The notes below the pieces were generated by a model. The model saw nothing but the letters and a program-made list of their open reading frames with translations, searched no databases and was not told the origin of the DNA. Positions 1 through 10,082 of a stretch of 10,935 bases of DNA are shown here, piece after piece. The position numbers were made by a program, and so were the translations under genes. The DNA comes from Mobilitalea sp. (lineage in GTDB: Bacteria; Bacillota_A; Clostridia; Lachnospirales; Lachnospiraceae): positions 1 through 10,935 of the forward strand of contig JARKQP010000356.1 in the NCBI GenBank assembly GCA_029974875.1. The letters are read 5' to 3'. Each line of letters begins with the position of its first letter. The stretch's first letter is position 1.

Positions 1-604
1 CATCTTCCTCAAGGTTACGGTCAAAATATTTCATCCAACGGTGTAGGGGGTTCTTCCGGTCATATTGTTCGCTTCTATAGAATTTCTTAAGCTCCAGGAA
101 ATGGATTTCCTGGTCATCGGTCAGCACATCCTCAGGATGCTGGTCCACCCGGAAATGGCTGCTGATATGGAACTCCGGATAATCAAGGTAATTAAAGTTC
201 AGTATATTAATCGAAATTACCTTTCCCAGCTCCTTATAGTCATCCCCAAGCCCGATTCCTGAGATGAACAGCCTCCCGTTATAGTATTGGCTGCGTTTCA
301 CGATGTTGTTTTCATCCAGCAGCTGGACCTCGATGTTAACCTGTGTGCCATTTGGAAGCTTTGCCCTGATATCCAGCCTGGAGAATTTTCCTTCCGGGGT
401 TTCCTGGGGCAACTCCAGGTTTTCAATGATTTCTACGTCCGTAAGCTCTTCCTCCAGCACCGCATTCAGGAACGAGACCAGGCATATCTTACATTCTTCC
501 GTTCCCATGTACTGCCGGAATAAATAATCGTTAAGGGGATTAAGACGCCCTCCCCTGTTCTTGGCAATGTAACTGCCGCTTGTTTCTTTCACTAATAATT
601 GCAT
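1..604 (-). CDS. Rpn-family PD-(D/E)XK nuclease / putative transposase, C-terminus cut by window edge
   Basis: A reading frame with no stop runs from ATG at 604-602 to the window edge, giving 201 complete codons. It starts MQLLVKETSGSY, followed by LNPLNDYLFRQYMGTEE, the usual N-terminus of Rpn/PDDEXK_2 proteins. The nuclease core is visible: D78 in RLDIRAKLPNG, then E92-V-Q94 in NIEVQL, then a KRSQYYNGRLF helix (about 103-113), matching the D...ExQ pattern of the family. Family members are DNA endonucleases linked to recombination or annotated as transposases, and are often multicopy in Clostridia. The start is well supported by GGAGG five bases upstream of ATG. It is transcribed away from the sugar-uptake genes and looks unrelated to them. 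The C-terminal part, often variable in the family, lies outside the window, so intactness cannot be judged. Family assignment is from recognised motifs. Confidence 0.85.
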   Translation of the reverse strand, partial: MQLLVKETSGSYIAKNRGGRLNPLNDYLFRQYMGTEECKICLVSFLNAVLEEELTDVEIIENLELPQETPEGKFSRLDIRAKLPNGTQVNIEVQLLDENNIVKRSQYYNGRLFISGIGLGDDYKELGKVISINILNFNYLDYPEFHISSHFRVDQHPEDVLTDDQEIHFLELKKFYRSEQYDRKNPLHRWMKYFDRNLEED

Positions 605-611
605 GGTTTCC

Positions 612-691
612 TCCTATGTGCCATGTGTCATTCTACATGTGCTTTTCATGTGCTTTTTCCATGTTCCGCTTTCCATGTTCCATGTGCCACA
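612..691. repeat. Degenerate 7-bp tandem repeat array in the leader of the nuclease gene
   Basis: On the plus strand the stretch reads as heptads with consensus close to TTCCATG. Clear units are TCCTATG (612-618), TGCCATG (619-625), TTCCATG (657-663), TTCCGCT (664-670), TTCCATG (671-677), TTCCATG (678-684) and TGCCACA (685-691). The middle is more degenerate and slips by a base. CATG occurs at 622, 636, 647, 660, 674 and 681. The first unit overlaps the ribosome binding site of the minus-strand nuclease gene, so the array lies between that gene's predicted promoter and its start codon. Confidence 0.75.
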
Positions 692-749
692 TCAGCAAAC
701 AAGGGATACCACGACTTTTACGCCATCCAGAGCCTGTTTTTCTACTAAA

Positions 750-778
750 ATTATAGCAGATACTAATAGCGGGCGCAA
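750..778 (-). promoter_or_regulatory. Predicted extended -10 promoter of the Rpn-family gene
   Basis: On the minus strand there is a perfect TATAAT (755 to 750) preceded by TGC (758 to 756), an extended -10. A weak -35, TTGCGC (778 to 773), lies 17 bp upstream. Transcription would begin near 743, giving a leader of roughly 140 bases that contains the heptad array. Prediction from motifs only. Confidence 0.55.
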
Positions 779-1144
779 TATCCTTCAAAAGGCTCTTGGT
801 TGACCTTTCAATTGCTGATGGGTTCTTTACTTAATAATGAAATGCTTGTGGTAATAAATAGGCAGAAATGCCTGAGGCTTTAAAGCGCAGCCTTGGAATT
901 GAAGTAGATCAGATAATATCAGTATAACAGGATACCTTCCTAAAATCCAGCAAATTCCATTCGTCAAAGTTACAAAATATACTGCCTTTTATGTCAAAAA
1001 TGCATAATATAAAAAATAATACGACGATGTAAGGAACAAAGCTGTTATTGATACCAAAAGAGCGGTTTATTTTTTGCACCTGTCTTAAGATGTATTGTAT
1101 TGAAGGAAGAAGACCCTATGAGGTTAATGCGATGGAGGTGGGCC
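779..1144. other. Non-coding intergenic stretch with two small hairpins and a weak promoter-like motif
   Basis: I see no convincing gene here on either strand. Two adjacent potential hairpins lie at 860-873 (AGGCA-GAAA-TGCCT, a GNRA-type tetraloop) and 875-893 (AGGCT...AGCCT). Neither has a T-tract, so neither is an obvious terminator. A promoter-like pair occurs on the plus strand: TTGAAG 899-904, 18-bp spacer, TATAAC 923-928. No coding region follows it closely. The AT-rich sequence makes chance matches likely. Confidence 0.4.
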
Positions 1145-1214
1145 AAGTAGTCGCTTTTGTTATTGGATTTAATCGTTTTTCGTATTGCCATAAAAAAAAC
1201 CTATATTCTATGAT
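1145..1214 (+). promoter_or_regulatory. Promoter with tandem 22-bp-spaced operator, copy 1 (kinase-regulator operon)
   Basis: Positions 1145-1190 match 3843-3888 at 37 of 46 bases without gaps. Two direct half-sites are present, TCGCTTTTG at 1151-1159 and TCGTTTTTC at 1173-1181, 22 bp apart. Over 17 bases (1149-1165 against 1171-1187) the two repeats agree at 13. The proximal repeat continues into a -35 box TTGCCA (1185-1190), followed by an 18-bp spacer and TATGAT (1209-1214). Paired direct half-sites about two helical turns apart with the proximal one at the -35 are typical of AraC-family activators. I infer that it binds the AraC-type regulator encoded at 3063-3848 and drives the kinase gene through a leader of about 170 bases. 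A further candidate -35/-10 (TTGACC 1243-1248, TAAGAT 1267-1272) lies inside that leader. Confidence 0.6.
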
Positions 1215-1236
1215 AGGAGGTAGATACAGCCTCCTA
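1214..1236 (+). other. Hairpin in the predicted leader of the kinase gene
   Basis: TAGGAGG (1214-1220) and CCTCCTA (1230-1236) form a perfect 7-bp stem with a 9-base loop. It begins at the end of the predicted -10, so it would lie at or near the 5' end of the transcript. No T-tract follows, so it is not an intrinsic terminator. It may stabilise the 5' end or be a dyad for a DNA-binding protein. Function unknown. Confidence 0.45.
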
Positions 1237-1392
1237 ACAGATTTGACCGCAATATCAATAAGATGGTAAGATATCTACATAATTATTTCTATTACTATTT
1301 AAGAAGAGATCCAATAATCAAGAATAAATCCAATCATAATTGTGAAGCATAGACCCTGTAAAATGCAGGAGTACATAATAGTGGGGTAGAGG

Positions 1393-3060
1393 ATGGGAAA
1401 ATATAATAAATCTTTAAATATCAAGCTAATGCTATCGCTGGTGATAGCCATTATGGTGCTGCTGTCCTATATGGAATTGGCAAGCTTTTATTCAATCAGC
1501 ATATATAAAAAGCGGACATTTGAAAATTACCAAAATTCCCTAGAGATGTATACATCCTTTTGGGAAAACAGATTGAACATGATCAACCAGGAGTTAATTA
1601 CAATTTCAGAAAAGAGCCATGAGCCCTACTACTGGAATATGTGCTATTCCAATGATGACGTTGAATTTGAAACAAGCAAAATCATGATGCAGAAGAGCAT
1701 GATTGAAATATCCAGATTACATGAGTACAAAATTATGGTGTTCGCCTATATACCGGACAGGAATTGCTATACCCGCTCCAATGATTTGGTAAACAAGGTA
1801 AAAGATTTAAAGGCGTTGGATGAGGGAATCCGGGGTTATATTATGTCAGAAGCCAGAAAGCCAAGCTTAAGCTGGAAATATACCTATATTGGTGAAAGGC
1901 ACTATTTCATCCAGTATTTTGCAGTAAACAATGGATATATTGGAACCATAGTTCCATGTGATGTGATTTTGAAATCCTTAACCCAGGATACCAAGCAGTT
2001 AGATTATATTGCCTTTGTAAATGGGGAGGCGGTTGTCAGCCAAATAGGAGATCCGGCGGAACAAGGCAGATCCTTCTCTTCCTTTCAAATTGCTACAGAA
2101 TACATGCCCTATTCCATACAGGTACATGTGAGCGACAGCAGAATATACAGTGATTATAAGATACTGCTGTTAATCGCAGTTAGTGTGGCTGTGATGTCCA
2201 TCATCGTTATCATAATCAATCTGCAGATCGAGAGAAAAATGGTATTAACACCGTTAAAGAAATTAAAGGAGGCCATGGAGCAATTTAGCCATGGTAAGCT
2301 TGATGTACGGCTTAAGGAGGATACCAATAGTGAGGAAATAAGCTCAGTCAATAAGGCATTTAATTCAATGGCGGAGCAGATCATGGGCTTGAAGATCGAG
2401 ATCTATGAATTAGAATTAAGGCGTCAGAAAATCCAGGGCAGTTTTTTAAGGGTGCAGATACAGCCACATTTTTACTGCAACATACTAAATTTGATCTATG
2501 GGCTGGCGGGGATGAAGGACTTTGGAACAGTCCAAAAGCTCTCTAAGGTGACCTCAAATTATTTCAGGTATTTGTTAAGCACAAAAGATGCGCTGGTACC
2601 ATTAAGCCGGGAAGAAAAATGCGTAATAGATTATGGTGAAATCCAACAGATGAGATATCCGGGGATTATTGAATTGGAATTGGAGTCCCTGGTGGAAGAA
2701 AAGGAAATTTTAGTACCGCCATTAATCATCCAGACCTTCGTAGAAAACAGCATCAACCATAATATAACCTTCGTACCGGTACTTCATGTAAAGGTAAGGA
2801 TTTGGCGCGGCGGCGGGGATTATCTGATGATTGAGGTGGAGGATAATGGGCTGGGCTTTCCTGGTGAAGTGCTTGACCAGATCAATTCAAACAGGAAGAT
2901 TGTCAGGGGCGGTAACCATATAGGGATTACAAACGTGAAGGAAAGGTTAAAGCTGATTTATGGGGAGGATGCGTCATTTTCCATTGAAAGCAAAAAAGGC
3001 TGGACAAAGATAAGGATACAAATACCATATAAAATAAGCTTATTAGATGGGAGGGAATAG
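1393..3060 (+). CDS. Sensor histidine kinase, YesM/LytS-like (His_kinase family), membrane-bound
   Basis: A 555-residue membrane kinase. Two transmembrane segments (about 10-36 and 257-277) flank an extracellular sensor region of about 220 residues. No specific ligand motif is recognised there; YesM-type kinases usually carry a Cache-like fold. A HAMP linker follows (about 278-330). The phosphorylated histidine is H359 in VQIQPHFYCN, a variant of the usual NPHFLYN box in which Cys replaces Tyr. The ATPase domain shows an N box (FVENSINH, N452), a G1 box (DNGLG, 484-488) and HIGITNVKERL (509-519). It should autophosphorylate on an external cue and pass phosphate to the regulator whose ATG lies 2 bp after its stop. 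The neighbouring binding protein and permeases suggest a sugar-related signal, possibly through the binding protein; this is inference. A GGGG run 7 bases upstream of ATG is a weak ribosome site. Confidence 0.93.
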   Translation: MGKYNKSLNIKLMLSLVIAIMVLLSYMELASFYSISIYKKRTFENYQNSLEMYTSFWENRLNMINQELITISEKSHEPYYWNMCYSNDDVEFETSKIMMQKSMIEISRLHEYKIMVFAYIPDRNCYTRSNDLVNKVKDLKALDEGIRGYIMSEARKPSLSWKYTYIGERHYFIQYFAVNNGYIGTIVPCDVILKSLTQDTKQLDYIAFVNGEAVVSQIGDPAEQGRSFSSFQIATEYMPYSIQVHVSDSRIYSDYKILLLIAVSVAVMSIIVIIINLQIERKMVLTPLKKLKEAMEQFSHGKLDVRLKEDTNSEEISSVNKAFNSMAEQIMGLKIEIYELELRRQKIQGSFLRVQIQPHFYCNILNLIYGLAGMKDFGTVQKLSKVTSNYFRYLLSTKDALVPLSREEKCVIDYGEIQQMRYPGIIELELESLVEEKEILVPPLIIQTFVENSINHNITFVPVLHVKVRIWRGGGDYLMIEVEDNGLGFPGEVLDQINSNRKIVRGGNHIGITNVKERLKLIYGEDASFSIESKKGWTKIRIQIPYKISLLDGRE

Positions 3061-3062
3061 GC

Positions 3063-3848
3063 ATGAATATTCTTATTGTTGACGATGAGGTGGCAACGGT
3101 ACAAATAATAAAAAAAGCCATAGATTGGAGCAGCATTGGCATTGACTTTGTCCATACAGCCTACAATGCGGTGCAGGCGAGGGAGGTTCTGGCCCAAAAT
3201 AAGGTTGACATTATTATTTGTGATATAGAGATGCCACAGGAGAACGGCCTACAGCTGATCCAGTGGGTCCAAGGCCTTTACCCCCAGATTATCAATATTA
3301 TACTGACCGGCTTTGCTGATTTTAATTATGCGAGAAGCGCCATCTCCCTGGGGGTATATCAGTTTATGCTAAAGCCCGTCTCCTTTGAAGAGCTTGGGAA
3401 CACAATCAAGGAAGCCATAAAAATAATTGAGCAGGAGCGCCAGTTAGAAAAGCTCCGCCAGGTCGGCTCCTATTTTTCCAATAAAAGCTGGGCAGAGGAA
3501 TTAATGGCTGGTGAAAAGGTAGCCCTTAAGCCGGAGGTGGCCCTAGTGAAGAATTATATGGAGCAGCATTACCGGGAAAATATTACGAGGGAGGATATTG
3601 AAGCCCTGGTGCATTTGAACCGGGATTATCTTAACCGGGAGTTCAAGGAGGAGCTGGGCTTCTCACTGATGGAGTATATCCAATTCTATAGGATACAGAT
3701 CGTGAAGCAGAAATTATTAGAAACAGAGGATTCGATAGCGAAAATATGTACCCAGGTCGGCTATGATTCGCCGCCCTATTTATCCAAAATCTTTAAGAAG
3801 TGGACAGGCATGACCCCCATAGAATATAGGGAAAGAAAAGGGAAGTAG
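3063..3848 (+). CDS. Response regulator with AraC-type DNA-binding domain (YesN-like)
   Basis: A 261-residue regulator. The receiver (1-122) has the acidic pair D7-D8, the phosphoacceptor D54 in IICDIEMP, T82 and K104 (LKP). A linker of about 35 residues follows, then an AraC double helix-turn-helix (about 158-257) ending in the family signature KIFKKWTGMTPIEYRE. It is short for the YesN group, which often has an extra domain between receiver and HTH. Translation starts at ATG 3063 behind GGGAGGG (3049-3055), 2 bp after the kinase stop, so the pair is co-transcribed and probably translationally coupled. It most likely activates the downstream transporter genes, and possibly its own operon, through the two matching operator elements at 1145-1190 and 3843-3888. 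The second operator begins inside the last codons of this gene. Confidence 0.94.
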   Translation: MNILIVDDEVATVQIIKKAIDWSSIGIDFVHTAYNAVQAREVLAQNKVDIIICDIEMPQENGLQLIQWVQGLYPQIINIILTGFADFNYARSAISLGVYQFMLKPVSFEELGNTIKEAIKIIEQERQLEKLRQVGSYFSNKSWAEELMAGEKVALKPEVALVKNYMEQHYRENITREDIEALVHLNRDYLNREFKEELGFSLMEYIQFYRIQIVKQKLLETEDSIAKICTQVGYDSPPYLSKIFKKWTGMTPIEYRERKGK

Positions 3849-3912
3849 TCGTTTTTGTTATCAGTTTTGATCGCTTTTCCTATTGCTGGAGCGATGGTTT
3901 TTTTCTTATAAT
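3843..3912 (+). promoter_or_regulatory. Promoter with tandem 22-bp-spaced operator, copy 2 (binding-protein operon)
   Basis: This is the second copy of the element ahead of the kinase. Half-sites TCGTTTTTG (3849-3857) and TCGCTTTTC (3871-3879) are 22 bp apart. The proximal repeat runs into -35 TTGCTG (3883-3888), followed by an 18-bp spacer and a perfect TATAAT (3907-3912). The -35 is poor, as expected for a promoter that depends on an activator. The distal half-site abuts the regulator's TAG stop (3846-3848). It would drive the binding protein at 3968, with a leader of about 50 bases. Confidence 0.65.
3870..3904 (+). terminator. Intrinsic terminator of the kinase-regulator operon, overlapping the next promoter
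   Basis: ATCGCT (3870-3875) pairs with AGCGAT (3890-3895), and CC/GG (3879-3880, 3888-3889) may extend the stem across a small bulge. A run of seven T follows (3898-3904). The left arm is the proximal operator half-site, and the -35 box lies within the loop and inner stem. The stem is modest, so read-through into the binding-protein gene is possible. Confidence 0.6.
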
Positions 3913-3967
3913 TCTTATATCAAGGGTGCCCGATGAAATAAAAAATGAAGGATTGAGGAGAAGCAAT

Positions 3968-5497
3968 ATGAAAAAGAAATGGAAAAGCCTGATTGCAATA
4001 TTAATAATAGCTGCAATAACCTTAACGGGGTGTGGGGCAGGGGGATCAAAGGAAGAAAAGAAGAATGATGCGCAAGGCACGGCATCTACTGAGGAAAAGA
4101 CGCCTTTAAGGGATGGAAAAATGACGGAGCTGAGAGTGGTATTTCCGGGAAATGCCTCTTCACCGGCAAGCCTGGAGGCTGTCCAGGAAGGGATTAATAA
4201 AATCCTGGCCGGGTACATGGATGCAACGGTGAAATTGGATATTCAGGAATGGGGTGTATTTATTGACCAGCAAAGCCTGATGCTCTCTTCGGGTGAAGAT
4301 GTTGCCTTGATGTTTACATTTTCAGGAACTAAAAATTATGCGGCAAACGGACAGGCGAAGGATATTACTGATTTATGTAATACATATGCAGCAGACGGCC
4401 TAAAATTAACGTCCCAGTATATTGACGCATGTAAAGTAAACAATAAAATCTACGGTTTTCCGACCTTCCATGAATATTCAAGCAGAAAAGGCCTTGTCTG
4501 CCGCACGGATATTTTAGAGGAGCTGGGGATCGATCCGGCACAGGTTAAGACTTGGGATGATGTTGAAGCTGTTTTTAAGCAAGTAATGCAAAAGCATCCT
4601 GAAATGAATGTTTTGTGCCCGGCAGATGCTAGCGCTGGCGTATTTGGAAACATGATAAGCAGTAAATATGATGAGCTTACAGGGGGAGTAGTGACCTTAA
4701 TCGATTCTGACGGAAAAACTGTCGTAAATCTGTATGATACTGATATGTACAGGGATTTTGCTAAAATGGCCTATGAATGGAATGCAAAGGGATACGCTAT
4801 GCCTGATGCAACAACGGCTACGGAAACCAGGCAGGAGCTCCTGGCAGCGGGAAATACCTTTGGCTATATCGGTTTGATACATCCCGGGACTGCAACCCAG
4901 GAATTAAAGAATTCGGGAGTAAAAGTAACGACCATCAGTATCGAGGAGCCTATTTTAATAACAAACACGGTGAATTTTGCCCAATATATGGTTCCAAGCT
5001 CTTGCAGCACGCCTGAAAAGGCAGTCAAGCTGCTGGATCTGATGATAACGAATAAGGACATCAACAATTTAATGATGTATGGGATTGAAGGAACAGATTA
5101 CGTGGTGAAGGATGAAGCGAAAAATATCATCGGATATCCGGATGGAGTGGACAGCTCCTCCTCCGGCTGGAGTAATGAAACCTGGCTGGTCGGCAATGGC
5201 TCCTTGGGATACATCTGGGAATCGGATCCTCCGACAATCTGGGAGCAGTATAAGGAGCTGAATGAAAGCGCAGCACCTTCCCCATTATTCGGATTCAGCT
5301 ATGATACGGAGAAGGTGAAAACGGAAATTACAGCGGTAACCAATGTGATAAGTAAATACAGGCTGGTGATTCAAGCCGGCTATGCTGACCCGGATAAAAC
5401 GGTTGCATCCATGGTAAGCGAGCTTCAGGCAGCAGGAATCCAGAAAATCGTTGATGATGCACAAGCACAGGTGGATCAGTGGTATAGCTCCAAATAA
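3968..5497 (+). CDS. Extracellular sugar-binding lipoprotein of an ABC transporter, with C-terminal DUF3502-like region
   Basis: A 509-residue family 1 solute-binding protein. I chose ATG 3968: GAGGAG lies 7 bases upstream, and the product then begins with a classical lipoprotein signal (KKKWK, hydrophobic stretch 8-19, lipobox L19-T-G-C22). An in-frame GTG at 3926 would add 14 charged residues ahead of the signal and is unlikely. After lipid attachment at C22 comes a low-complexity linker, then the binding fold from about residue 50. The last 70 residues (GFSYDTEKVKTEI... ending QAQVDQWY) match my recollection of the DUF3502 region of LipO/YtcQ-type proteins. It should capture a sugar outside the membrane and deliver it to the permeases. 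The substrate cannot be read from sequence; the GH3 enzyme nearby suggests a beta-linked oligosaccharide. First gene after the operator at 3843-3912. Confidence 0.92.
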   Translation: MKKKWKSLIAILIIAAITLTGCGAGGSKEEKKNDAQGTASTEEKTPLRDGKMTELRVVFPGNASSPASLEAVQEGINKILAGYMDATVKLDIQEWGVFIDQQSLMLSSGEDVALMFTFSGTKNYAANGQAKDITDLCNTYAADGLKLTSQYIDACKVNNKIYGFPTFHEYSSRKGLVCRTDILEELGIDPAQVKTWDDVEAVFKQVMQKHPEMNVLCPADASAGVFGNMISSKYDELTGGVVTLIDSDGKTVVNLYDTDMYRDFAKMAYEWNAKGYAMPDATTATETRQELLAAGNTFGYIGLIHPGTATQELKNSGVKVTTISIEEPILITNTVNFAQYMVPSSCSTPEKAVKLLDLMITNKDINNLMMYGIEGTDYVVKDEAKNIIGYPDGVDSSSSGWSNETWLVGNGSLGYIWESDPPTIWEQYKELNESAAPSPLFGFSYDTEKVKTEITAVTNVISKYRLVIQAGYADPDKTVASMVSELQAAGIQKIVDDAQAQVDQWYSSK

Positions 5498-5511
5498 TAA
5501 AACAGATATAT

Positions 5512-5547
5512 CATGGCCTCTCATATCAAACGAGAGGTCATGTTTTT
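5512..5547 (+). terminator. Strong hairpin with T-tract between binding protein and permeases (attenuating terminator)
   Basis: Bases 5512-5522 (CATGGCCTCTC) pair with 5532-5542 (GAGAGGTCATG), an 11-bp stem with a single G-U, a 9-base loop and TTTTT at 5543-5547. It sits 15 bp after the binding-protein stop and 60 bp before the first permease. Partial termination here would yield more binding protein than permease, as is common in such operons. I see no good promoter between it and the permease. Confidence 0.85.
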
Positions 5548-5607
5548 CAGACCTATTTAATTTTGGATAGGCCATCAAAAATTGAAAGGTGCGGGGAGAT
5601 TAAGGAA

Positions 5608-6525
5608 ATGAAGAAGAGTTTTAGCTATAAGCTTAAAAAATATATGCCCATTTATATCATGCTGCTTCCAGGCTTTCTATACCTGTTGGTCAATAACTAC
5701 TTGCCAATGGGCGGTATCCTGATTGCCTTTAAGCACATGGACTACAGCAAGGGTATTTTAGGGAGCGACTGGTCGGGGCTGGCTAATTTTGAATATTTAT
5801 TTAAGACACCGGATGCATTCAGAATCACGAGGAATACGCTTTTATACAATGCGGCCTTTATTATAACAACGATGGTGATGGCAATTATATTTGCCATATT
5901 GCTCAGTGAGATCTGGTCTAAACGGGCCGTGAAATTCTACCAGACCGTATTATTGCTGCCCTATATGCTGTCCATGATCATCGTAAGCTACCTGGCGTAT
6001 TCCTTTTTAGCAGGAGATACGGGGTTACTGAATGGGGTTTTGGGGAGCTTCGGAAGGGAGAAGGTCTCCTGGTATTCGAGGCCTGAGTATTGGCCCTTTA
6101 TCCTTGTCATCATTAATTGCTGGAAGACAGTAGGGTATAGTACCGTAATCTACTTGGCATCGATTCTGGGCATTGACGGTGAGTTATATGAAGCAGCCTC
6201 GGTGGATGGTATTACAAAGCTGCAAAGGATCAGATATATTATGCTGCCAATGATTAAACCGACAATTATAACGATTTTGCTGTTACATGTGGGCCGTATT
6301 TTTTATTCCGACTTCGGACTTTTCTACCAGGTACCCATGAGCTCAGGGGCTTTGATGGATGCAACGAATACAATTGATACCTATGTGTACCGTGGATTAA
6401 TCAGCCTGGGAGATGTGGCGATGTCATCGGCAGCAGGGGTGTACCAGTCACTGGTTGGATTTTTGTTAGTGCTATGTGCCAATTGGATAACAAAAAGATA
6501 TAGCAGTGAAAATGCATTGTTTTAA
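5608..6525 (+). CDS. ABC sugar transporter permease 1, CUT1 type (LplB/MalF-like)
   Basis: A 305-residue inner-membrane permease. ATG 5608 is preferred: GGGGAG (5593-5598) precedes it, and the product begins MKKSFSYKLKKYMPIY leading straight into the first membrane helix. An in-frame TTG at 5563 would add 15 residues and has no ribosome site. Six hydrophobic segments are visible. The cytoplasmic EAA loop that docks the ATPase is clear: E195-A-A-S-V-D-G201, continuing to IMLPMIKP. The C-terminus ends ANWITKRYSSENALF, typical of this subfamily. It forms a heterodimeric channel with the next permease, 14 bp downstream. No ATPase gene is present in the window, as usual for CUT1 systems of this type, which borrow a shared MsmK-like ATPase. 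Confidence 0.93.
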   Translation: MKKSFSYKLKKYMPIYIMLLPGFLYLLVNNYLPMGGILIAFKHMDYSKGILGSDWSGLANFEYLFKTPDAFRITRNTLLYNAAFIITTMVMAIIFAILLSEIWSKRAVKFYQTVLLLPYMLSMIIVSYLAYSFLAGDTGLLNGVLGSFGREKVSWYSRPEYWPFILVIINCWKTVGYSTVIYLASILGIDGELYEAASVDGITKLQRIRYIMLPMIKPTIITILLLHVGRIFYSDFGLFYQVPMSSGALMDATNTIDTYVYRGLISLGDVAMSSAAGVYQSLVGFLLVLCANWITKRYSSENALF

Positions 6526-6539
6526 TGAAAGGGGAAATT

Positions 6540-7433
6540 ATGCACTATAGAAGTGAAAAAATATATCAGGTTTTCTTTAACCTATTCATGGCCTTAATCT
6601 CAATAGCAACATTAGTACCGCTAATTGTGCTGATATCCTCATCCTTCACCCAGAATAAAGATATCACCCTGTATGGGTATTCCCTGTGGCCGCGCACCTT
6701 TAGCCTGGAGGCTTACGGCTATATTTGGAGGGAACGTATGCAGATTTTCCGTGCTTATTTTATCACTATTTTTGTGACGGCATCCGGTACCCTGGTAGGA
6801 GTCATCAGTTCTGTTTTATACGCATATGCCCTGTCAAAACGGGAGTTTCCCTTAAAGAGGTTTTTCTCTGTGTACCTCCTGTTTACGATGCTCTTTAATG
6901 GTGGGCTGGTTCCAACTTATATCATGTATACAAGGTATTTCAGCATAAAGAATACGATTTTTGCGTTGATCATACCGGGTCTCCTGATGAATGCCTTTAA
7001 TGTCATCCTGGTGCGCAGCTATATACAAAACAATGTACCCCAGGCGCTAATTGAGGCGGCAACCATAGATGGGGCAAATGAATTTATAATAGTCAGGAAG
7101 TTAATATTTCCTTTGGCAAAGCCCATCATTGCCACGATCGGCTTATTCATAGGAGTGGCCTATTGGAATGACTGGCAGAACGGATTATACTATGTTACCG
7201 ATGATAAGCTGTACAGCATCCAGCAAATTTTAAATAACATGCTAAAGAATATAGAGTATCTGTCGAAGAACACCACCTCGGTGGCCAAGTCCACCACCTT
7301 AGCTGGCACTTTACCGGCAGGAACCGTAAGAATGGCAATTGCTGTCGTTGGTATGTTGCCGATCTTGGTCATCTATCCATTTATCCAAAAATATTTTGTT
7401 AAGGGTATTTCACTAGGCGCCGTCAAAGGTTGA
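6540..7433 (+). CDS. ABC sugar transporter permease 2, CUT1 type (YtcP/MalG-like)
   Basis: A 297-residue permease, partner of the preceding one. Two starts are possible. ATG 6525 overlaps the previous stop (TAATG) but has no ribosome site. ATG 6540 has AAAGGGGA just upstream and yields the usual N-terminus (MHYRSEKIYQ, then a membrane helix), so I use 6540; translational coupling with the previous stop remains likely. The EAA loop is at E172-A-A-T-I-D-G178, followed by LIFPLAKPII. The C-terminus IQKYFVKGISLGAVKG is the family hallmark. Hydrophobic segments fit six transmembrane helices. The stop lies within an inverted repeat (7413-7444). Confidence 0.93.
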   Translation: MHYRSEKIYQVFFNLFMALISIATLVPLIVLISSSFTQNKDITLYGYSLWPRTFSLEAYGYIWRERMQIFRAYFITIFVTASGTLVGVISSVLYAYALSKREFPLKRFFSVYLLFTMLFNGGLVPTYIMYTRYFSIKNTIFALIIPGLLMNAFNVILVRSYIQNNVPQALIEAATIDGANEFIIVRKLIFPLAKPIIATIGLFIGVAYWNDWQNGLYYVTDDKLYSIQQILNNMLKNIEYLSKNTTSVAKSTTLAGTLPAGTVRMAIAVVGMLPILVIYPFIQKYFVKGISLGAVKG

Positions 7434-7444
7434 GGCGCGCCTAG
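7413..7444 (+). other. GC-rich inverted repeat spanning the permease 2 stop codon
   Basis: CTAGGCGC (7413-7420) and GCGCCTAG (7437-7444) are perfect 8-bp arms around 16 bases that include the TGA stop at 7431-7433. No T-tract follows on either strand, so it is not a standard intrinsic terminator. It could be an RNA-stability or processing hairpin that separates permease and GH3 expression. An 8-bp palindrome, GGCGCGCC, lies at 7434-7441. Confidence 0.5.
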
Positions 7445-7655
7445 AAAAGGGACTGACTATGCTTAGAAAAGGGCAGAGAGCTTACCAGGCGGAAATCCCG
7501 GGGAATCAATAGACATTTCACTCATAACAAGAGAAAGAGAGGGGCGTCAGACCCATTACCTTTCTATTGTAACTTAGGCAAGAGATGGAAGAACACCTAA
7601 TCGGAGTGTTAAGTGTAGATCCAAATATATAGTAGTAAAAGAGAGGGCATGGACC
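7445..7655 (+). other. Intergenic gap between permease 2 and GH3 gene, no clear promoter
   Basis: With the inverted repeat, this leaves a 222-base gap that is unusually long for the operon. It contains a 10-base direct repeat TAGAAAAGGG (7442-7451 and 7464-7473). A tiny frame, ATG 7459 to TAG 7512 (17 residues), has AAAGGG upstream but no recognisable product. A TATTG preceded by CTTTC (about 7560-7570) faintly resembles the proximal operator half-site, but no distal half-site or good -10 accompanies it. Whether the GH3 gene has its own promoter or is read from the transporter operon is unresolved. Confidence 0.4.
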
Positions 7656-10082
7656 ATGAAAAAATATAAAGACATATTGTTAGAACCGGAAGAGAGGGCA
7701 GAGGATTTACTTTCCAGAATGTCCTTACAGGAAAAGATGGCCCAGATCGTCGGATATAATCCGGCAAAATGGTCAATGGATGGGCTTGAGGATTATCCAT
7801 ATGGAGTGGGACAGGTTGCATTCTTTGTCGCCCTGGAAAAAGAAAATACAATGGAGGCAGTTAATCTGCTAAATCAAATCCAGGATATCGTTATGGAGCG
7901 GAGTGAACACAGAATACCTGCGATTTTCCACGTAGAAACCCTGTGCGGAGCCATGATACCGGGTGCTGCCAGCTTCCCCTCCGGCATAGGGCAGGCCTCT
8001 ACCTTCCACCCTGAGCTTCAGGAGACGATGGCGGAGCTGATTGGAAAGCAAGCCAGTGCAGCTGGTGTAACACAGTGCTTTGCTCCTGTTCTTGATATTT
8101 CAAGGGATTCAAGATTTGGAAGACAGGGGGAAACCTATGGAGAGGATCCAGCACTTGCAGCTGCTATGGGAGCAGCCTATGTCAGGGGGCTGCAAAAGGG
8201 CGGAAGGAAGGACCATAAGTTAATTGCCACTGCGAAGCATTTCGTTGGATACCATAATACACAGGGAGGAATACATGCTGCAAATTGTGACATCCCTGAG
8301 AGGATGCTTCGGGAGGTATATGTTAAGCCGTTTCAGGCAGCCGTTACAGAGAGCGGTTTGCAGGGGATTATGACATCCTATAGCACCATTAATGGGGAGG
8401 CGGTTTCCGGATCGAAGCATTTATTAAGAGATATTCTACGTGAAGAAATGGGATTTGAAGGGATTGTTGTCTCAGATTACACCTCTATATCGGAGATGCA
8501 TGAGAGGCAGAAAATGTATGGAAGCTTCGAAGAGGCAGGGCTACAGGCTCTAGAGGCAGGGGTTGACCAGGAGTTACCCTCTAAAAAAAGCTTTAATGAT
8601 ACCCTGATGGAGTGGTTTAAAACAGGGAAGGCTGATATGGAGGTATTAGACCGCGCCGTAAGGAGGATTTTAACCATTAAATTCAGGCTGGGGCTTTTTG
8701 AAAACCCATATGCGTTGCCAGAAGAGGAAATTATAAAGGAGTTTGCCGATCCATTCACCAAAGATATATCACTAAGATGTGCCCAGGAATCCATGGTATT
8801 GGTCAAAAATGATGGAGTTCTGCCATTGAGCAAAAGTAAAAAGCGGATTGCTGTAATCGGCTACCATGCGGGTACAATCCGGGCAATGTTTGGTGGCTAT
8901 ACCTCCATGAGCTTATACGAAAGTGATCTTGTCGGGGAAAATACGATGGCAGGCTTCAATATGAAGGAGGCTTCCCATGAGGAGTTAATCGCTCTGATGG
9001 AGGGGTTATCTAAAAGGGAGCAGTACCCAGGAACCAAGGTGCAAAAGGAATCCCCGGAGGTTGAGGAAAGGGTGAAGAAAAGAGTCCCGGACATGCGGAC
9101 CCTATATGAGCAATTGTGTGAAAGCTGTGGGGATATTGAATTCGAATACTCCTATGGATACCCATATGCCGGTGATGACTGTAGCGCACATGAAGCAGCT
9201 TTAGAGGCCGCGAAAAAGGCAGATGTAGTAATTGTAACTATCGGAGGAAAGTATGGAACAGGGAGCACCGCATCCACGGGGGAAGGCATTGATTCCGTCA
9301 ACATCAACCTACCCCTTTGCCAGGAACTGTTTTTAGAGAAGCTGGGCAAGCTGAATAAGCCGGTAATTGCTGTACATTTTGACGGAAGGCCTGTATCCAG
9401 CGACAACGCGGACAAATATGCAAATGCTATCCTGGAAGCATGGAGCCCGGCGGAAAGAGGGTCGGAAGCGATTGTGTCAGTCCTTTTTGGAGACTACAAT
9501 CCGGCAGGCAGGCTCCCTGTATCCGTGGCATACAACGCCGGACAGCTTCCGGTTCATTACAACCATTTCAACGGCTCCAGCTATCACCAGAATACCTTGA
9601 GCTATTTTAAGGATTATACGGACTGTAGCCATGAGCCCCGTTACTATTTTGGGCATGGCCTGTCCTATACCCGGTTTTCTTACAGCAACCTTATGATACA
9701 GAAGGATAGATTGAACCCGGATGAAGCACTTATTGTTCAGCTGGAGGTAGAAAATACCGGGAACATGGATGGTGAAGAGGTCGTCCAGCTCTATATCAGT
9801 GATAAATACGCAAGTATAAATCGGCCGAACAAAGAATTAGCCGGTTTTATCCGGACACCGGTCAGCGTTGGCGAGACTAAGAAAATTCAATTTAGAGTAG
9901 ATCTGAGCCAGCTGGCATTTTTGGACAGCGGGATGAGGTGGAAGATAGAAAAGGGTGAAATGATGGTAGAAATAGGTTCATCTGCCGTAGACATCCGGCT
10001 GAAGGACAGCTTTTATATTAACGGGGATCGCTTTATTGATGGGAAGCATAGAGGGTTTTATTGTATTGGTGAGGTTCTTTAG
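7656..10082 (+). CDS. Glycoside hydrolase family 3 beta-glycosidase (beta-glucosidase/xylosidase type), cytoplasmic
   Basis: An 808-residue GH3 enzyme that cleaves non-reducing terminal beta-linked sugars with retention. The start is set by GAGAGGG (7641-7647) 8 bases before ATG. There is no signal peptide, so it acts on imported substrate. The N-terminal barrel (about 15-350) has the substrate-binding block DSRFGRQGETYGEDP (151-165), K194-H195 (AKHF) and the nucleophile D274 in IVVSDY. The C-terminal sandwich (about 390-655) has G-E543-G-I-D; E543 is the likely acid/base region, and NPAGRLPVSV is typical. A segment at about 420-510 (FGGYTS... to YAYGYPYAGDD-like) is a lineage-specific insertion seen in a GH3 subgroup. 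A fibronectin III-like domain follows (about 690-770: LEVENTGNMDGEEVVQLYI). Specificity (glucoside, xyloside or other) cannot be fixed from sequence. Its position after the permeases suggests it processes their cargo. Confidence 0.93.
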   Translation: MKKYKDILLEPEERAEDLLSRMSLQEKMAQIVGYNPAKWSMDGLEDYPYGVGQVAFFVALEKENTMEAVNLLNQIQDIVMERSEHRIPAIFHVETLCGAMIPGAASFPSGIGQASTFHPELQETMAELIGKQASAAGVTQCFAPVLDISRDSRFGRQGETYGEDPALAAAMGAAYVRGLQKGGRKDHKLIATAKHFVGYHNTQGGIHAANCDIPERMLREVYVKPFQAAVTESGLQGIMTSYSTINGEAVSGSKHLLRDILREEMGFEGIVVSDYTSISEMHERQKMYGSFEEAGLQALEAGVDQELPSKKSFNDTLMEWFKTGKADMEVLDRAVRRILTIKFRLGLFENPYALPEEEIIKEFADPFTKDISLRCAQESMVLVKNDGVLPLSKSKKRIAVIGYHAGTIRAMFGGYTSMSLYESDLVGENTMAGFNMKEASHEELIALMEGLSKREQYPGTKVQKESPEVEERVKKRVPDMRTLYEQLCESCGDIEFEYSYGYPYAGDDCSAHEAALEAAKKADVVIVTIGGKYGTGSTASTGEGIDSVNINLPLCQELFLEKLGKLNKPVIAVHFDGRPVSSDNADKYANAILEAWSPAERGSEAIVSVLFGDYNPAGRLPVSVAYNAGQLPVHYNHFNGSSYHQNTLSYFKDYTDCSHEPRYYFGHGLSYTRFSYSNLMIQKDRLNPDEALIVQLEVENTGNMDGEEVVQLYISDKYASINRPNKELAGFIRTPVSVGETKKIQFRVDLSQLAFLDSGMRWKIEKGEMMVEIGSSAVDIRLKDSFYINGDRFIDGKHRGFYCIGEVL

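Follow-up and report, generated by a model that had tools for sequence, protein, structure and literature searches.

Two predicted operators of a YesN-type response regulator at a sugar-transport locus of Mobilitalea, and a candidate residue-to-base rule for its relatives

The locus analysed here lies on a stretch of 10,935 nucleotides, hereafter referred to as the window, which contains the following genes:

2-604, minus strand: divergent gene
1393..3060, plus strand: sensor histidine kinase with HAMP, His_kinase and HATPase_c domains (domain match), which we take to be of the YesM type
3063..3848, plus strand: response regulator of the YesN type with a receiver and an AraC-type HTH (HTH_18), a predicted DNA-binding protein
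3968..5497, plus strand: solute-binding protein with DUF3502, opening gene of the putative target operon
5608-6525 and 6540-7433, plus strand: two ABC-transporter permease genes
7656..10082, plus strand: glycoside hydrolase family 3 (GH3) gene

This gene set is that of a YesMN-type system, i.e. a His_kinase/HATPase_c sensor adjoining a regulator with a receiver and an AraC-type HTH, followed by a solute-binding protein and two permeases, and the PDB relatives of the regulator include chains named AraC-family two-component regulator and yesN. Judging from its sequence, the solute-binding protein would be a lipoprotein. The GH3 gene, which is possibly co-transcribed with the genes upstream of it, suggests that the inducer may be a beta-linked glucoside or oligosaccharide. 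The closest locus, L001, belongs to a Clostridiales MAG (genome G001, to which the genome-wide statements refer); its regulator shares 95% identity with the window's, and its genes from the kinase through to the hydrolase are arranged in the same order. The distribution of the system is patchy: among the 34 genomes of the genus of G001 that were searched, a relative of the regulator at E<=1e-50 is present in G001 only.

The features that concern us are located 5' of the kinase gene, and between and within the regulator and binding-protein genes:

1145..1190, plus strand: predicted operator, copy 1, 5' of the kinase gene; the T's of its half-sites are 1151 and 1173, a spacing of 22 bp
1185..1214, plus strand: predicted kinase-gene promoter, TTGCCA-N18-TATGAT (TTGCCA 1185-1190, TATGAT 1209-1214)
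3624..3638, plus strand: codons of Asp188 to Arg192 (DYLNR), first recognition helix
3843..3888, plus strand: predicted operator, copy 2, 5' of the binding-protein gene; half-site T's at 3849 and 3871
3880..3897, plus strand: terminator-like hairpin, seven pairs followed by TTTTTTTCTT, within the copy 2 promoter (consensus match only)
3883..3912, plus strand: predicted transporter-gene promoter, TTGCTG-N18-TATAAT (TTGCTG 3883-3888, TATAAT 3907-3912)

A sequence-only reading of this DNA had described the two 46-bp elements as matching at 37/46 positions without gaps, and this match indeed stands apart, as the next-best ungapped pair of 46-mers in the window scores 30 and the maxima in 40 dinucleotide shuffles of the window were 28-31. 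Its description of the anatomy was also accurate: the paired half-sites have the same 22-bp spacing in both copies, and TTGCNN-N18-TATRAT follows both in the same register, with the proximal half-site overlapping the -35 hexamer. On either strand of the window, TCGYTTTT occurs as these four half-sites only, and there is none in the 222 bp 5' of the GH3 gene. It should be noted that the second half-sites in the window start with ATCG and not GTCG, which counts against reading the elements as operators. The AAGTAG common to both copies is, in copy 2, where the regulator gene ends, its final codon being followed by the stop (TAG 3846-3848), so that this copy begins at the regulator stop codon. 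The start codon of the kinase gene is located 178 bases from the -10; transcription from this predicted promoter would give the kinase mRNA a leader of about 170 bases (1215-1392), whose part near the start codon is well conserved in L001.

A hairpin plus T-run between the proximal half-site and the -10 is present at four of 49 called sites (the window, L005, L007 and L396), the expectation from mononucleotide shuffles being 0.6. In L005 and L007 the left arm of the hairpin is half-site 2 itself, and for this reason a terminator ending the regulator transcript may be embedded in the promoter that follows. A terminator as the sole reading of the elements was considered and set aside.

The regulator falls in a well-supported clade of 13 regulators, the window's included. 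Two regions of each clade locus were scanned, one spanning the end of the regulator gene, from 40 bp upstream of it to 300 bp downstream, and the other consisting of the 500 bp 5' of the kinase gene. The half-site matrix used for this excluded the tested locus and, in the cases of L001 and L007, its near-copy as well; L078 and L212 contributed to none of the matrices. The null was a set of 60 resamples of each locus's own region, drawn from a first-order Markov model. The sequence-only reading had named orthologues that keep the regulator and lose the half-sites as the case that would speak against it; what we found is that a paired site after the regulator gene scores above all 60 resamples in 12 of the 13 loci. 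With the window itself left out of the matrix, copy 1 scores 19.5 (resample maximum, 9.1) and copy 2 scores 16.2 (resample maximum, 5.4). The sole miss, L078 (G052), may be regarded as a natural control: no operator was found beside its regulator, which is adjoined instead by a tRNA-Ser gene, and therefore the site goes with the transporter gene. The predicted sites have the same orientation as the promoter, a proximal half-site at the -35, and conservation together with the regulator in orthologues, as in AraC-type direct repeats. Counting against the operator reading, three Asp-type members of the clade (L003, L080 and L212) have TCT in place of TCG in both half-sites; in L002 the first half-site has TCG and the second TCT.

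Both copies are retained in the closest relative, where one matches TCGYTTTTNNTAT-N9-TCGYTTTTNNTAT exactly and the other has a single mismatch to it. Copy 2 is identical in the window and L001, whereas several bases of the promoter spacer have changed.

The situation at the kinase gene is different in extent. A promoter-linked site on this side is present in three of the 13 clade loci (the window, L001 and L084), and was not found in the 500 bp 5' of the kinase gene in the other ten; in L079 a match barely exceeds the resamples (8.3 vs 6.3) and has no recognisable promoter. Autoregulation is therefore probably a feature of this lineage. The earlier proposal that the system is autoregulated holds as likely for the window. 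Copy 1 might alternatively be a passive relic, in which a duplicated end of the regulator gene together with its promoter landed 5' of the kinase gene and has no regulatory role. The regulator stop codon within the shared AAGTAG and the ten clade loci without such a site would fit this origin, but copy 1 differs from its L001 counterpart at three of 46 bases, which is less divergence than in the DNA upstream of it, its promoter is kept and the leader is well conserved, and in E. tayi (locus L084) the kinase gene is likewise preceded by a site, with a lag of 21 and a TATAAT. We consider a relic unlikely, though it is the alternative that survives best.

To describe the sites across relatives, 20 operators, including the window's, were picked by eye and aligned. 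In all 20, each half-site opens with TCG or TCT, mostly preceded by G, at a lag of 21-22, and in 18 TAnnnT begins 35-36 bp past the second T; the two exceptions are L003, with GATAAT at that place, and L009, which fits in another register only. The TCGYTTTT put forward earlier as the recognition sequence did not hold up as the general core. What the sites share is (A/G)GTCG, replaced in a few relatives by GTCT; its two occurrences are 21-22 bp apart, TAnnnT is located some 35 bp further downstream, and the bases that follow the core vary. The proposal of AraC-like direct repeats fared better, since the lag of 21-22 and the fixed distance to the -10 recur in both Lachnospiraceae-type and Paenibacillaceae loci. 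Judged by eye, the -35 is unrecognisable in several relatives, mainly Paenibacillaceae, as is expected for activator-dependent promoters.

These features were formulated as a rule: GTC[G/T], followed at a lag of d bp by [A/G]TC[G/T], with G as the last base of one or both, and TAnnnT 34-37 bp beyond. It was applied to a discovery set of 175 distinct regulators (differing in their last 90 residues), each searched over the regulator gene together with 2600 bp upstream and 500 bp downstream. Conforming sites occur at d=21 in nine loci and at d=22 in 12, and each other lag from 12 to 39 gave 0-5; both window copies satisfy it. Some calls overlap genes: that of L212 falls within the regulator gene, and for L009 and L017 the call starts in the gene end. 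Two coarser approaches were abandoned. A motif-free lag histogram of 160 loci gave nine at lag 21 and five at lag 22, compared with 1-2 in shuffles, yet also eight at lag 15 and six at lag 36, and was too blunt; pairs of 4-mers without the -10 requirement were swamped by A-runs, GTCG pairs still peaking at lags 21 (4) and 22 (8).

We then related the sites to the sequence of the regulators. The HTH domain (positions 10-103) aligns with residues 18-111 of MarA (1BL0) at equal length, placing columns 31, 34 and 35, i.e. Asp188, Asn191 and Arg192 of the window regulator, at MarA positions 42, 45 and 46. In the part of the MarA literature consulted, Trp42, Gln45 and Arg46 of helix 3 are described as touching bases (PMC3315485). 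All 21 called loci of the discovery set have Asp at column 31 (21/59 Asp vs 0/116 others; Fisher 7e-12, not corrected for kinship). Asn at column 34 ranks second and Arg at column 35 fifth, behind columns 50 and 23; as the latter two are not MarA-type base contacts, part of the column signal is kinship.

Because the rule was partly derived from the discovery loci, the later sets constitute the test. Set 1, 85 new regulators of Paenibacillus, Hungatella and Neobacillus, showed no excess: a site was called in 1/10 Asp-type and 0/75 other loci (Fisher 0.12), with one call at lags 21-22 while the 26 control lags together gave eight; this single site (L302) has a mixed GTCG/ATCT core. Set 2 comprised 28 new regulators from 30 Paenibacillaceae loci, with L114, itself in the discovery set, as the query. 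Here the site is present in 10/21 Asp-type and 0/7 Ala-type loci, at lag 22 in nine and lag 21 in one, and the 26 other lags gave three calls. The Ala-type loci, inspected after set 2, suggested GTCA repeats at lags 20-23. Set 3 was therefore collected with an Ala-type query (L347) and scanned with a looser rule (lags 20-23, TAnnnT at 33-38); its 21 new distinct regulators all have Ala. GTCA repeats are present in 16 of them (nine at lag 20, three at 21-22, four at 23), compared with one match for 12 control lags together, and GTCG, GTCC and GTCT repeats were found in 0/21. Four of the 21 are close to the query (85-90% identical), three of these with a site; 13 of the other 17 have one.

Over all 315 regulators, the looser rule gives GTCG repeats in 29/92 Asp-type and 0/223 other loci, and GTCA repeats in 20/57 Ala-type, 1/10 Gln-type and 0/248 other loci. 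Among residues represented by at least eight regulators, GTCT repeats go with Asp only (2/92). No clear core emerged from these regulators when residue 188 is Ser, Asn, Glu, Gly, Thr or Tyr. It should be noted that for 63 of the 92 Asp-type regulators no site was called in the interval that starts 60 bp ahead of the gene end and stops 500 bp beyond it, which counts against the operator reading; at such loci the promoter may be elsewhere or the rule may be too strict. Arg occupies the MarA-46 position in 28/29 GTCG loci and 21/21 GTCA loci. When the 50 loci with a site are compared over 105 columns, only residue 188 fully separates GTCG from GTCA. A tree of these loci, built with the three contact columns masked, needs five Asp/Ala changes, two of them forced by well-supported branches, so that the residue-base match goes back to more than a single inherited event, although the number of certain events is small. 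Val at 188 together with Arg192 goes with GTTT in three of six regulators, plus the one new Val regulator, which is too few to claim a rule. In L094, L128, L095 and L404, which have Val at this position, GTTT direct repeats at lag 21 are located downstream of the regulator gene, and L224, an Asp member of their clade, has GTCG instead.

The layout has precedents. At araI1-araI2, E. coli AraC occupies two direct 17-bp half-sites 21 bp apart, of which the proximal one overlaps the -35; spacing and overlap are as in the window, and the core differs. AraC is no response regulator but detects the sugar directly. MarA, which binds as a monomer, has a related double-HTH domain with Trp at position 42, rather than Asp or Ala. 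In Caldicellulosiruptor bescii, the available part of a published survey predicts operators of AraC-type two-component regulators as tandem repeats (units of 7-11 bp, periodicity of 21 or 32 bp) at local two-component systems beside sugar ABC transporters (PMC8579813). As tandem repeats of about 21 bp have been predicted before at sugar-transporter loci of this type, the operator described here is of a known kind (PMC8579813). The C. bescii motifs differ in being given per regulator within one genus, and that part of the survey presents neither a shared GTCG core nor a residue-base rule (PMC8579813). The XydS/R and XuaDSR systems of Ruminiclostridium cellulolyticum likewise place AraC-type response regulators beside sugar-uptake or hemicellulase genes (PMC3572039, PMC12175519, PMC9675976). 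According to the available portions of these reports, XydR binds promoter regions in gel shifts with no consensus operator settled, and is reported not to regulate its own genes, which counts against an autoregulatory operator (PMC3572039); a 2025 study of XuaDSR was unable to define conserved binding sites (PMC12175519). The pneumococcal yesMN system is described, in the accessible part of the source, as positively autoregulated, which counts in favour of the operator reading, with no clear repeat motif for YesN (PMC11034029). We found no residue-base rule for AraC-type response regulators in the literature searched, which covers subscription papers incompletely and does not prove absence.

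Taken together, conservation, spacing, -10 register, restriction to the locus and residue-base covariation, as brought out by sequence comparison, lead us to assign a probability of roughly 0.86 to the view that the response regulator encoded at 3063-3848 uses both elements as its operators. Comparison strongly supports the original proposal, in which the elements serve the local AraC-type regulator and the transporter is what it chiefly controls (the locus-restricted pattern, and the paired site in 12/13 clade loci). The sites could instead belong to a paralogue or global regulator, the local regulator being a mere neighbour. YesN-kind proteins are indeed abundant (66, 71 and 57 matches at E<=1e-15 in G001, G153 and G154, where one long regulator may yield two matches), and the GTCG core is common to many Asp-type relatives. 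Nevertheless, TCGYTTTTNNTAT-N9-TCGYTTTTNNTAT at <=3 mismatches matches the 6.4 Mb of G001 at the two L001 copies only (a reversed-pattern control gave one match), the site stays beside the regulator's relatives across distant genomes, and residue and base match, leaving a non-local owner improbable. A repressor operator, where the regulator covers the -35 and blocks the promoter until phosphorylation frees it, could account for the overlap of the proximal half-site with the -35 hexamer. We hold this to be very improbable: the layout is as in AraC-type activators, several relatives have no -35 match by eye, and in the available part of the C. bescii survey three of the five AraC-type two-component regulators have sites that lie upstream of the promoter elements and are read as activator sites (PMC8579813). 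That the elements are a structured RNA or a mobile-element repeat, as the two copies and the terminator-like hairpin overlapping copy 2 might suggest, is scarcely credible given that Rfam at gathering scores returned no match in 600-8000, predicted promoters follow both copies and G001 has no further copies at <=3 mismatches.

Under the operator reading, we infer binding, its dependence on phosphorylation, activation rather than repression, and the sugar; activation is suggested by the position of the sites and by other AraC-type systems. An extracellular sugar signal would lead the kinase to phosphorylate the regulator, two subunits of which would bind head to tail on the half-sites 22 bp apart, the first HTH of each (Asp188, Arg192) reading GTCG (or ATCG) and the second the T-rich part about 10 bp on. 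The promoter-proximal subunit, positioned on the -35, would recruit RNA polymerase, the -10 starting 36 bp past the second half-site T. Copy 2 would turn on transcription of the transporter genes, and perhaps that of the GH3 gene as well, and copy 1 would provide positive feedback on the kinase and regulator in this lineage.

We further think it fairly likely that DNA recognition by the first HTH of YesN-type response regulators follows a simple code of one residue to one base, in which Arg at the MarA-46 position would go with the G of GTC and the residue at MarA-42 would set the next bases: Asp for GTCG (sometimes GTCT), Ala for GTCA and, perhaps, Val for GTTT. The window regulator, with D188 and R192, fits the Asp188-type GTCG class as defined here. 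In chemical terms this is plausible: the cytosine paired with the last base of GTCG could donate a hydrogen bond to Asp, and Ala could pack on the thymine opposite the A of GTCA. The three Asp-type clade members with TCT cores, and set 1 with no excess over control lags, lower our estimate, and the tree suggests that the code rests on few independent switches.

Regulators of the YesN kind are numerous per genome and often located beside sugar-uptake genes, and their sites are rarely known. The window supplies an operator with precise anatomy, and the comparison a testable residue-to-base rule. If true, the rule would pair regulators with targets without experiments on each, so that the operators of many uncharacterised sugar regulators of the Bacillota would be predictable from protein sequence, and their specificity would be swappable by one residue.
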